In this document: in pieces, positions 45,548-49,235 of the stretch
Position numbering within the stretch: position 1 is the first letter of the stretch
Layout of the letters: every line of letters begins with the position of its first letter
Source: Acidobacteriota bacterium
GTDB taxonomy: Bacteria > Acidobacteriota > Terriglobia > Terriglobales > Acidobacteriaceae
Reading direction: 5' to 3'
Assembly (NCBI GenBank): GCA_003225495.1
Contig: QIAJ01000130.1
Location: forward strand, 1 to 49,235
Length of the DNA stretch: 49,235 nt
Notes under the pieces: model-generated
Seen by the model: the letters and a program-made list of their open reading frames with translations, nothing else
Told to the model about the DNA's origin: nothing
Database searches by the model: none
Translations under genes and position numbers: made by a program

Positions 45548-45616
45548 GTCGTTGGGTCGTTAGTCGCTTGTCGTTCGGGCGATGGCCTACCTGCTACGAC
45601 CAACGACTAGGCCATC
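45548..45616. repeat. Nested inverted repeats between pdxS and pdxT
   Basis: GTCGTTGGGTCG (45548-45559) pairs with CGACCAACGAC (45597-45607) with one bulge, and GATGGCCTA (45581-45589) pairs exactly with TAGGCCATC (45608-45616). The pairings overlap in space, so alternative folds are possible. It covers most of the 90-base gap before the pdxT start. Confidence 0.6.
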
Positions 45617-45627
45617 GACTGCCGTTT

Positions 45628-46191
45628 ATGAAAATTGGAGTCCTAGCTCTGCAAGGCGATTTCGATGCCCACCGCAAGCGCCTCGAAGAACTCGGCGCGG
45701 AAGTCGTTCTCGTGAAAAAGCCCGAGCAACTCGACGACATAGCAGGACTGGTAATTCCCGGCGGCGAGTCGAGCACGTTTCTCAACCTGCTCGGCAAAGA
45801 GGGCTTCGCGAAGCTTAAAGGTTTCGTTCGCATGAAGCCGACATTCGGTACGTGCGCGGGAGCGATCTTGCTTGCGAACGAGGTTGAGAATCCGAAGCAA
45901 GTCGGACTGGGCGCGCTCGACATCACCATCCGCCGCAACGCCTACGGCCGCCAGGTGGACAGTTCGATCCGCGAAGGGCAGTTTCTTCACGATCCGATCG
46001 AGATGGTCTTCATCCGCGCGCCCAAGATCGAGCGCTTAGGGAAAGATGTAGAAGTAGTCGCCACCGAAGGCCGCGATCCCGTCATGGTTCGGAAAGGGAA
46101 CACCCTCGCGGCAACCTTTCATCCCGAACTCAGCGACGATTCTCGGATTCATCAATACTTTCTGGACCTGGTTACGAACGGCAAGCATTGA
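45628..46191 (+). CDS. pdxT: Pyridoxal 5'-phosphate synthase, glutaminase subunit
   Basis: A 187-residue class I glutaminase supplying ammonia to PdxS. The triad is C76 in FGTCAGAI, H165 and E167 in TFHPELS. The PGGESSTFLNL loop binds glutamine; LDITIRRNAYGRQVDS and FIRAPKIE are PdxT-specific. ATG 45628 is set by KIGVLALQGDFDAH at the N-terminus. The 90-base gap after pdxS carries inverted repeats that may tune the PdxT:PdxS ratio. Confidence 0.97.
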   Translation: MKIGVLALQGDFDAHRKRLEELGAEVVLVKKPEQLDDIAGLVIPGGESSTFLNLLGKEGFAKLKGFVRMKPTFGTCAGAILLANEVENPKQVGLGALDITIRRNAYGRQVDSSIREGQFLHDPIEMVFIRAPKIERLGKDVEVVATEGRDPVMVRKGNTLAATFHPELSDDSRIHQYFLDLVTNGKH

Positions 46192-46241: not shown

Positions 46242-48182
46242 CTACTTCAGCAGGAACTCCTTCACGAACATCACCATCGCGTAGAACTGAAAATCCTGAT
46301 TTTTCTTCTTCTGAAATCCGTGTCCTTCATCTTTCGCTAGCAGATACCAAACTGGCCCGCCATTTCCGCGAACTGTTTTCACCATCTGCTCGGATTCCGT
46401 CATCGGAACCCGCGGATCGTTCTTCCCCTGAATCACGAAGATCGGCTTCGTAATATTTTTTGCCTTCGTCAAAGGTGAGATGGCCGCGAGAAACTCCCGC
46501 ACTTTCGGATCGCGTTCATCGCCATATTCCACACGCCGCAGGTCTTGCCGGTATCCGGAAGTATTCTGCAAGAACGAAACCAGGTTTGAAATCCCGACGA
46601 TATCCACCGAGCAGCAGATGCGATCGTTGTAGTTGGTCGCAACCGCCAGCGTCATGAATCCGCCATAACTGCCGCCGGTAATCATCACGCGGCTGGCGTC
46701 GAGATCGGGTTGTGTAGCGATCCAGTCAAGCAGGGAGTTGATGTCCTTGTACGAGCCTTCGCGCAGCAGGCCATTATCGAGCGCCAGAAAGGTCTTGCCG
46801 TAGCCGCTCGATCCACGAACGTTGGGGTAGATCATCGCGACGCCCAGTTCGTTGACGTAATACAGGCTGCGCCCAATGAAATATGGGCGAAATTGTCCCT
46901 CTGGTCCGCCGTGAATGTTGATCATGACGGGCCGCTTGCCCGCAAACCTTGCCGGCGGGCGATAGAGAAACCCGCTGATCGAGCGATCGTCCCAACTTTT
47001 CCAGTGAATGAGATCCGGCTCGCGCACCCCTGAGACATTCGCGCCACCGGTTTCGCTCTCCGTCCAGCGATCGACCTTGCCGGTCTGCGCATCCAGCGAG
47101 TACACGTCGTCCGTGACGCTGGCTGAGTTGAAGTTAAATCCGAGATCGCGACTATTCTTGTGCCACCGTGGGCCGCTGATCACACCGTGCGGCAGTTTCG
47201 GCAATGCAACTTGCTTGCGGGTGGCTGTATCCAGCACATGCAGTACGCCATAGCCATCTTCATTGCTGACGAAAGCGATCTTTTTGCCATCGTCCGACAA
47301 ATCGAATTCGTCGACGTCCCACCGGATGTCACTAGTCAGATAGGTATGCTGCTTCGAAACCAGATCGATGTAAGCCAGGCGGTGGAATTCGCTATCCTTA
47401 TCGGTGGTGGTGTAAAAGCCCTTGCCATCCTTCGAAAACTGGCCGCCGGAATAGGAAATCTTGGTGGGGTTATCGCGCGGAGTAATGGCCGTCTTCTCGC
47501 CGCTGGCCACATCCACGAGCCACAAATAGCTCTCATTTGCAGAGACTTCTTCGAACGCGAGAATCTGCTTGCCGTCTCGCGACCAGTCGAGCGCGTCCCA
47601 GCCACCTCCCTGATTCTTCGCTACCAGGTGATCGGTCTTAGGATCGTCAGGATTCACCGCCCAAAAATCGACATCTTTGCCGGTGCGGCGCGTCGATCCA
47701 TACACGATCCATTTGCCGTCGTGATCCCAGGTCGCGCCGGTGTTCCTTGACTTGCCGTCGGTGAGCAAAGCGATATCGCCGGTCGCGACGTCAAAGCGAT
47801 AAAACTGGTAGAACTCGCCGCCGCCGACATCCTTTCGAAAGATAAAACTCTTCCCATCCCGAGGATTGAATTGCGCTCCGGTCGAAGGCTCCAGAAAAAA
47901 AGTCAGCTGGGTCCGAGCCCCGCCTGGCATTTTCACTTGGTGGATCTGGTAACTGTCGGCGAAGCGCGTCGTGATCAGCATCTCGCGCCGCACGGGATTC
48001 CAACTGGCAAGGTCCGCAGCACGAAAATTGCTATAGCGCTGCGCGCCTTCTACGACCGCCATGGGAACGGGAGGGACACTCTCGACCACTAGGTTTTCGT
48101 TGGGAGCGAAAGTATCGGGCTGCGCGAAGAGCGCAACAGCCCACAGCACGCAGACACAAGAAGAGACAAGAAGCCGTTTCAT
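46242..48182 (-). CDS. Secreted S9 family peptidase (prolyl oligopeptidase type)
   Basis: A 646-residue exported serine peptidase. After a signal peptide (about 1-21, VCVLWAVALFAQ) comes a beta-propeller (about 60-390; PRDGKSFIFRKDVGGGEFYQ, SRDGKQILAFEE, DLSDDGKKIAFVSNEDG) that restricts access to peptides. The alpha/beta-hydrolase domain follows, with the nucleophile in ITGGSYGGFM (about S502), the Asp in GKNDPRVPM and the His in DEGHGF. ATG 48182 has AAGGA upstream and opens the signal peptide. It is monocistronic. Confidence 0.94.
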   Translation of the reverse strand: MKRLLVSSCVCVLWAVALFAQPDTFAPNENLVVESVPPVPMAVVEGAQRYSNFRAADLASWNPVRREMLITTRFADSYQIHQVKMPGGARTQLTFFLEPSTGAQFNPRDGKSFIFRKDVGGGEFYQFYRFDVATGDIALLTDGKSRNTGATWDHDGKWIVYGSTRRTGKDVDFWAVNPDDPKTDHLVAKNQGGGWDALDWSRDGKQILAFEEVSANESYLWLVDVASGEKTAITPRDNPTKISYSGGQFSKDGKGFYTTTDKDSEFHRLAYIDLVSKQHTYLTSDIRWDVDEFDLSDDGKKIAFVSNEDGYGVLHVLDTATRKQVALPKLPHGVISGPRWHKNSRDLGFNFNSASVTDDVYSLDAQTGKVDRWTESETGGANVSGVREPDLIHWKSWDDRSISGFLYRPPARFAGKRPVMINIHGGPEGQFRPYFIGRSLYYVNELGVAMIYPNVRGSSGYGKTFLALDNGLLREGSYKDINSLLDWIATQPDLDASRVMITGGSYGGFMTLAVATNYNDRICCSVDIVGISNLVSFLQNTSGYRQDLRRVEYGDERDPKVREFLAAISPLTKAKNITKPIFVIQGKNDPRVPMTESEQMVKTVRGNGGPVWYLLAKDEGHGFQKKKNQDFQFYAMVMFVKEFLLK

Positions 48183-48374
48183 GCGTACATCCTTAGAGCA
48201 GAAATAAAGAGTCAGCCAAATCTTATGAGCGGGAATCAGCAAGCGTCAATGCGGCGCGCTTCTAACCAGACGAAGACAATGAGGAAGTGTAAGCAGGATT
48301 TATTTGGGAATGGGGGCGCGGACGTTCGGCGCGAAGCGTCAGTCGCTCCGCACCGTCAAATTTTTCACAGGAAT

Positions 48375-48545
48375 CTATTCATTGCTGAGGCGACGACGAA
48401 TCAGGGTCGCCAGTCCAACCAGACCGGCGCCGAGGAGGAACAGAATACTGGGCTGAGGAGCAGTTGAGGCATGTACGGAAGCAGGAGTGGCAAATGATTG
48501 CACAACCGACATCAAGATCAACATTGCGAGGCCAGAAATTCGCAC
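48375..48545 (-). CDS. 56-residue PEP-CTERM-like micro-protein
   Basis: A short frame from GTG 48545 to TAG 48375, with an excellent AAGGAG 7 bases upstream. It contains a signal peptide (ISGLAMLILMSVVQSFATPASVHA, split here as an n-region, a hydrophobic core and an AxA-like cleavage zone near residue 26). Almost at once there follows a PEP-CTERM-like tail: PQPS, a helix (ILFLLGAGLVGLATLI) and RRR. The mature peptide before the tail is only a few residues. PEP-CTERM proteins are sorted and cleaved by exosortase; none is encoded here. It lies 192 bases from the S9 gene. The tail is a clear match in form; PQPS replaces the PEP triplet. Confidence 0.7.
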   Translation of the reverse strand: MRISGLAMLILMSVVQSFATPASVHASTAPQPSILFLLGAGLVGLATLIRRRLSNE

Positions 48546-48577
48546 GGGACAACTCCTTTCGTTGTAGGTATTCGCAA

Positions 48578-48658
48578 GCGATTTTCCAATTGGGGGAGGA
48601 TTCCATCAACTGTTCAAACAAGGCGATTTTCGGGGAAAATCGCTGACATTTTTTGTCA
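48578..48658. promoter_or_regulatory. Three-copy alternative-pairing element and T-rich hairpin upstream of the micro-protein gene
   Basis: GCGATTTTC occurs at 48578-48586 and 48623-48631, and its complement GAAAATCGC at 48635-48643. The last can pair with either of the first two; the nearer pairing leaves a GGG loop. Directly after it TGACA (48644-48648) and TGTCA (48654-48658) form a second hairpin followed by TTTTT on the plus strand. The set sits about 20-100 bases upstream of the micro-protein RBS and upstream of the MFS gene, in a 260-base divergent gap. Confidence 0.55.
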
Positions 48659-48805
48659 TTTTTACGATTTCTTCCGAAGCGTAACCATAAGGCGTGTGCA
48701 GTCCTTTTCACTTTTTGGGCTGTAGTGCCGCGGCGGACGGCCCGTTTCGGTTCATCAAACCATTCCGGTATCCTGTGAGCCATTGATTACTGATCGCGCG
48801 CCAAG

Positions 48806-49235
48806 ATGGAACCTGCTCCCGAACTGGAAATCCGCAGAGTCTCGTTTGCCTCCTACCTCCGGCTACTCGGAGGGAATCGCAACTTTCGACAGCTTTGGGG
48901 CGCGCAGATCGTCAGCGAAATCGGCGACTGGTTTTACACGCTGGCCATATACAACCTGCTCCTGCAACTGACCGGGCGCGCCAGTTCGGTTGGCCTGGCT
49001 CTGGTTTTGCAAGTTCTCCCGCAGACGCTCGTCGGCCCGGCGTCGGGAGTCATCAACGATCGCCTGCGCCGTAAATACGTAATGATCGCCGCCGATTTCG
49101 GCCGCGTGCTGATCGTGCTCTGCATGCTGTTCGTGCGCTCGAAAGAAATGGTCTGGCTGGTGTATCCGCTGCTCGTGGCCGAAACTCTGCTGGCTGCGTT
49201 CTTCGAGCCGGCGCGCAGTTCGGTGATCCCAAACA
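48806..49235 (+). CDS. MFS transporter, N-terminal part (3' end outside window)
   Basis: The frame opens at ATG 48806 and runs off the right edge. The first 143 residues show a cytoplasmic start, GNRNFRQLWGAQIVSEIGDWFYTLAIYNLLLQ as helix 1 and VGLALVLQVLPQTLVGPASGVINDRLRRKYVMIAADFGR, which contains the D-R-x-x-R-type loop between helices 2 and 3 typical of MFS (DHA3-like) exporters. Four helices are visible. Substrate unknown. The RBS is weak. Confidence 0.88.
   Translation, partial: MEPAPELEIRRVSFASYLRLLGGNRNFRQLWGAQIVSEIGDWFYTLAIYNLLLQLTGRASSVGLALVLQVLPQTLVGPASGVINDRLRRKYVMIAADFGRVLIVLCMLFVRSKEMVWLVYPLLVAETLLAAFFEPARSSVIPN

Follow-up and report, generated by a model that had tools for sequence, protein, structure and literature searches.

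The stretch of DNA considered here, called the window below, comprises 49,235 nucleotides of contig QIAJ01000130.1 from an Acidobacteriota bacterium, and near one of its ends it carries a 56-codon frame on the minus strand which lies between two larger genes and behind a conserved upstream region. The following features are needed for the analysis of this frame.

45568-46191, plus strand: pdxT-like gene, convergent (we take the name pdxT to apply)
46242-48188, minus strand: S9 prolyl-oligopeptidase-family gene, downstream of the small gene
48375-48545, minus strand: small PEP-CTERM gene, 56 aa, with GTG start at 48545-48543 and TAG stop at 48377-48375
48378-48446, minus strand: sorting tail, consisting of the transmembrane helix ILFLLGAGLVGLATLI and RRRLSNE (from PF07589, the alignment and an AlphaFold2 helix at residues 32-55)
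48447-48458, minus strand: PQPS, a variant of the PEP motif (from the sequence)
48459-48488, minus strand: mature segment TPASVHASTA, 10 residues (from the alignment of homologues)
48489-48545, minus strand: predicted signal peptide MRISGLAMLILMSVVQSFA, residues 1-19, ending in SFA (composition and A19 fit)
48553-48559, minus strand: ribosome-binding site AAAGGAG, 7 nt before the start (from the sequence)
48574-48589, minus strand: sigma-54-type -24/-12 promoter TTGGAAAATCGCTTGC (GG-N10-GC; from the upstream alignment)
48613-48618, minus strand: TTTGAA, a conserved block lying upstream of the -24 site (from the upstream alignment of homologues)
48696-48711, minus strand: activator-site-like palindrome GTGAAAAGGACTGCAC, with one mismatch to GTGCA-N6-TGCAC (from the upstream alignment)
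48806-49235, plus strand: divergent gene for an MFS transporter, truncated at the end of the window; a conserved neighbour

The product of 48375-48545, MRISGLAMLILMSVVQSFATPASVHASTAPQPSILFLLGAGLVGLATLIRRRLSNE, consists in order of the predicted signal peptide, the mature segment of 10 residues, the PQPS motif, a single transmembrane helix and RRR. The A19 column is invariant in two alignments, and signal peptidase I presumably cuts after this residue, as predicted from the -3/-1 rule. The mature segment is 10 residues long in 17 of 18 homologues from the genus and usually contains one central R, H or K, while parts of the helix and the RR pair are invariant among the aligned homologues.

On comparative sequence grounds, the 56-codon frame is a real gene under purifying selection. 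Homologues that align with 48 or more of the 56 residues (E <= 5.7e-8) are present in 18 of the 24 genomes of the genus, that of the window included, and 17 of these 18 are 54-56 aa long (one of 54, three of 55, thirteen of 56 and a single one of 62). The start codon is GTG in 15 of them, TTG in two and ATG in one, and AAGGAG precedes the start in 15. In the coding frame pN is lower than pS in all 153 homologue pairs (mean pS 0.613, pN 0.249); four of the other five frames give this result in 0-81 of 153 pairs, and one reverse frame also gives it in 153 of 153, though with pS and pN closer together (0.536 vs 0.289), which is taken as a shadow of the coding frame. Identity at codon positions 1, 2 and 3 is 0.67, 0.82 and 0.44 among the 18 homologues, and the plus strand of exactly 48375-48545 has no open reading, since it contains stops in the window. 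Constraint is strongest in the tail (pS 0.64, pN 0.15) and weakest in the mature segment (pN 0.38), so the sequence of that segment may carry little information. A sequence-only reading of this DNA had proposed that the frame is a real gene made up of a signal peptide and a sorting tail alone, had looked to relatives for a conserved length and ribosome-binding site, and had staked the proposal on the existence of same-length homologues and of coding constraint. The homologues in 18 of 24 genomes, their near-constant length, the ribosome-binding site kept in 15 of 18 and the 153 concordant pairs all bear the proposal out, and expression of the gene is graded as probable.

The tail was compared with two PEP-CTERM profiles. 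The window copy scores 21.8 bits against PF07589 (cut-off 20.7), and all 18 members of homologue set A3 match this model at E <= 1, which is an E-value criterion rather than a bit cut-off. Against TIGR02595 the window copy scores 15.9 bits and thus falls 0.1 bit short of the cut-off of 16; of five further copies from the genus, two are above it (22.0 and 19.0), two are below it (14.8 each) and one is absent from the matches at E <= 0.1. The window motif is PQP and not the canonical PEP. Strict PEP is found in 14 of the 18 genus copies, most of which keep PEPG, and the other four have PQP, PQP, PDP and PEA; outside the genus all three small copies have PES, so that strict PEP is found in none of them.

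The upstream DNA provides the best evidence that the gene belongs to the exosortase pathway, namely cis elements which the gene has in common with other PEP-CTERM genes and which the sequence-only reading did not mention. When 18 upstream regions are aligned, conserved islands stand inside diverged DNA, and two of these islands are interpretable, as the palindrome and the sigma-54-type promoter. GTGCA-N6-TGCAC occurs in all 18 loci, without mismatch in 11 and with one mismatch in 7, and ends 144-169 nt before the start, while the GG-N10-GC promoter usually lies 28-47 nt before it. Under fixed criteria all 18 loci have the palindrome and 16 have a strict sigma-54 site (all but G005 and G007), compared with 0 and 0 of 131 control ORFs from the same contigs; because the 18 loci are related and the control starts were set mechanically, these counts represent footprinting and not an independent sample. 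The three copies from outside the genus have the palindrome with one mismatch and, judged by eye, GG-N10-GC.

Other PEP-CTERM genes provide the independent test. A query lacking the tail retrieved 30 long ones, and the same palindrome lies within 260 nt ahead of 17 of them; eight of the 38 matches in that search were left out for want of a locus. A second set of PEP-CTERM genes, whose starts are uncertain, has it in 10 of 26 rows, that is, in 9 of 25 genes since L074 and L023 are one gene, and several of these have a -24/-12 site 58-81 nt downstream of the palindrome. The long PEP-CTERM gene on C113 of the window's own genome is preceded by it only when two mismatches are allowed. Genome-wide, the palindrome and promoter together occur 64 times, in all 24 genomes, against 7 times for the reversed pattern. 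Loci could be read for 30 of the 64 (L138-L167), and among these 4 precede a PEP-CTERM gene in the loci as printed and 8 precede a regulator gene which we take to be Rrf2-like, while other places precede a membrane protein of ~150 aa with one helix; the pair stands before these two kinds of gene in many genomes of the genus. The Rrf2-like gene and the gene for the ~150-aa protein indicate that the regulon extends beyond PEP-CTERM proteins. The conserved sigma-54 promoter and palindrome, common to the small gene and to unrelated long PEP-CTERM genes, are new here.

The neighbourhood of the gene is also conserved. A tblastn comparison finds the pdxT-like gene as a neighbour in convergent orientation in 17 of 18 loci, and the S9 peptidase gene is at the same place in the window, G010 and G098. 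Of 397 genomes sampled from the order, 18 have a match at E <= 1e-12, and 14 of these belong to the genus; full-length matches outside the genus are found in G037 and G108, which represent one other genus, and in G098, which represents a second, while G191 has a partial match within a longer frame. The small gene and a divergent MFS gene stand together in three genera; in G037, G108 and G098 pdxT is on another contig. A separate search for loci in named genomes returned seven loci in which essentially the tail alone is matched (residues 15-53 of the query at most) and which have no upstream palindrome.

Six genomes of the genus have no full-length match (G006, G012, G017, G019, G021 and G023), and G012, in which no pdxT was found, is left out of the comparison of neighbourhoods. 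G021 retains a decayed-looking copy with HEP and RGR, from which both the palindrome and the -24 site are absent; G017 has lost the frame but still has a palindrome as far from the MFS gene as expected; and G006 has almost no space between its MFS and pdxT-like genes. At least 5 of the 24 genomes have an exosortase but either no small gene or a decayed one, so this gene is dispensable. In several genomes a long PEP-CTERM gene stands beside the small gene or replaces it between the MFS and pdxT-like genes (L057 in G020, L062 in G016, L065 in G005 and L197 in G017), with the palindrome ahead of it in G020, G016 and G017; no pdxT was seen in G016.

The machinery required by a PEP-CTERM protein is present. 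The window's own genome has two exosortase genes, and at least one is found in 23 of the 24 genomes of the genus, the exception being a genome that is 76% complete. The main exosortase of G014 scores 439.8 against the XrtD model (cut-off 400) and adjoins genes that resemble the XrtA/PEP-CTERM type of exopolysaccharide-export genes, for the most part with scores under the cut-offs of the respective models. The palindrome is absent from the exosortase/exopolysaccharide locus of G014 and G000, and a scan of 22 exosortase loci gave a single match, with one mismatch. NtrC-type activators are present in the own genome, and none of its 52 matches to TIGR02915 reaches the cut-off (best 424 vs 502.6 bits), so control by PrsR in the sense of that model is rejected. 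A sigma-54 activator without a receiver domain is divergent from the XrtD-like exosortase gene (L205:9202-12184, L207:599-3537).

The conservation described above could in principle be produced by something other than a PEP-CTERM gene. A DNA or RNA element regulating the neighbouring genes, with no protein made, might be suggested by the conserved upstream DNA, but the three codon positions differ as they do in coding DNA, and the start codon and ribosome-binding site are kept, so that a pure element of this kind is rejected as extremely unlikely. The frame might instead be what is left of a longer PEP-CTERM protein, an option raised in the sequence-only reading and brought to mind by its extreme shortness and by the long PEP-CTERM genes just downstream in G005, G016 and G020. 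Purifying selection (pN below pS throughout) and a length, frame and promoter conserved over three genera oppose this, and real decay looks different, as the G021 copy illustrates; a remnant is therefore rejected as very unlikely. Given the shared promoter and palindrome and the exosortase in 23 of 24 genomes, the small gene looks like a member of a PEP-CTERM regulon. It is unlikely, too, that the product is a small membrane protein which serves the transporter encoded by the divergent MFS gene and that its likeness to PEP-CTERM proteins is fortuitous. An MFS gene does lie divergently beside the small gene in 14 of the 17 genus loci that could be assessed (none in G004, G007 and G011; the G001 locus ends 211 nt upstream) and in all three loci outside the genus, and the two genomes without an MFS gene near pdxT, G019 and G023, also have no small gene there. 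However, the MFS gene is present in G006, G017 and G021 although none of these has an intact small gene; 13 of 14 loci have no -24/-12 site on the MFS side; and both the PF07589 match and the cis elements that PEP-CTERM genes also have speak for a link with the exosortase system.

The near-constant length in relatives, together with promoter signals common with larger surface proteins, thus argues for a real gene whose product is probably a minimal exosortase substrate or partner. The preferred reading, to which a probability of about one half is assigned, is that of a lineage-specific minimal PEP-CTERM protein, a co-regulated exosortase substrate which presents a peptide of ~10-13 residues. 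The sigma-54 RNA polymerase, with an activator bound at the palindrome, would transcribe the small gene and the long PEP-CTERM genes together. Sec would export the 56-aa chain, signal peptidase I would cut it after A19, and the C-terminal helix would anchor the remaining ~37 residues in the inner membrane, with RRR on the inner side. The exosortase would then act at the PEP-like motif and hand the peptide of ~10-13 residues to the envelope, where its destination would probably be the exopolysaccharide layer. It is more speculative, and rather unlikely, that this twice-cut peptide of 10-13 residues with its central basic residue serves, anchored or released, as a signal or an envelope building block and not as a carrier of a domain.

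The main counter-evidence to the substrate reading is the relaxation of the motif, and because of it a pseudo-substrate or pathway regulator stays a serious rival, if a somewhat doubtful one. Such a protein would remain in the inner membrane with one or two helices and occupy the exosortase through its tail, and would in this way time or buffer the sorting of the long substrates, which are made from the same kind of promoter. The sequence-only reading had named a decoy or regulator and a minimal surface peptide as options, and the relaxed motif lends the decoy some weight. Strict PEP is kept in 30 of 30 long PEP-CTERM relatives but in 14 of 21 small proteins (Fisher p = 0.001; p = 0.016 for 14 of 18 in the genus alone), whereas the RR of the small proteins and some stretches of their helix do not vary. 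Both p values are inflated by the kinship of the sequences, about four changes being involved, so that the test overstates their independence. An AlphaFold2 model places two helices at residues 3-25 and 32-55, but this model is weak (pLDDT 73, pTM 0.36). Co-regulation with the substrates is what a buffer would need. On the other side, the G037 copy, with KPESG, reaches 21.4 bits on TIGR02595 (cut-off 16), so that a relaxed motif need not mean lost recognition and may still be read, and PEPG is retained by most copies in the genus.

The small protein agrees in its general plan with the PEP-CTERM proteins described in the portions of Haft et al. (2006; PMC1569441) drawn on here: it has a predicted signal peptide, a PEP-like motif, a transmembrane helix and a basic C-terminus, it is encoded by a single gene behind a long intergenic region with a sigma-54 motif and a putative upstream activator site, and its genome has an exosortase linked to exopolysaccharide. 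It differs from them in having only ~10 mature residues and no domain, and in its relaxed motif. In the same portions, 99 of 167 proteobacterial PEP-CTERM genes are reported to be preceded by sigma-54 sites with an activator motif ending in TTTACA, an arrangement reported for Proteobacteria only; the upstream element here is the GTGCA-N6-TGCAC palindrome, whereas their motif 1 is a 17-nt sequence with the TTTACA end. The PrsK/PrsR pair described there (TIGR02916/TIGR02915) resembles the present case in that NtrC-type activators occur in the own genome, and differs in that none of these exceeds the TIGR02915 cut-off. According to the part of the report considered (PMC9850573), a -24/-12 promoter has been mapped for pepA of Aquincola tertiaricarbonis and its transcription depends on RpoN. 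The likeness is that of a PEP-CTERM gene with such a promoter; PepA is a larger protein with a demonstrated role in flocculation, unlike the small protein, and the NCBIfam PepA model matches the latter in the tail only (18.9 bits vs a cut-off of 80). A response regulator is tied to PEP-CTERM targets in Desulfovibrio in the portion of a further study used here (PMC3333781). No description of a protein reduced to the two sorting signals was found in the portions of the PEP-CTERM and exosortase literature on small proteins that were covered.

A conserved gene can thus consist entirely of sorting signals, and gene finders with length cut-offs may miss such genes. The arrangement of palindrome and sigma-54 site suggests a regulon linked to exosortase which differs from the one that Haft et al. 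(2006) described in Proteobacteria. A nearly bare natural substrate, with ~37 residues left after signal peptidase, could be synthesised and followed by mass spectrometry. To our knowledge exosortase chemistry is poorly characterised, the exact cut and the acceptor being open.

A strong 12-bp hairpin without a T run lies ~20 nt past the stop of the small gene, at 48327-48355 (fold of 48290-48374, -22.7 kcal/mol).
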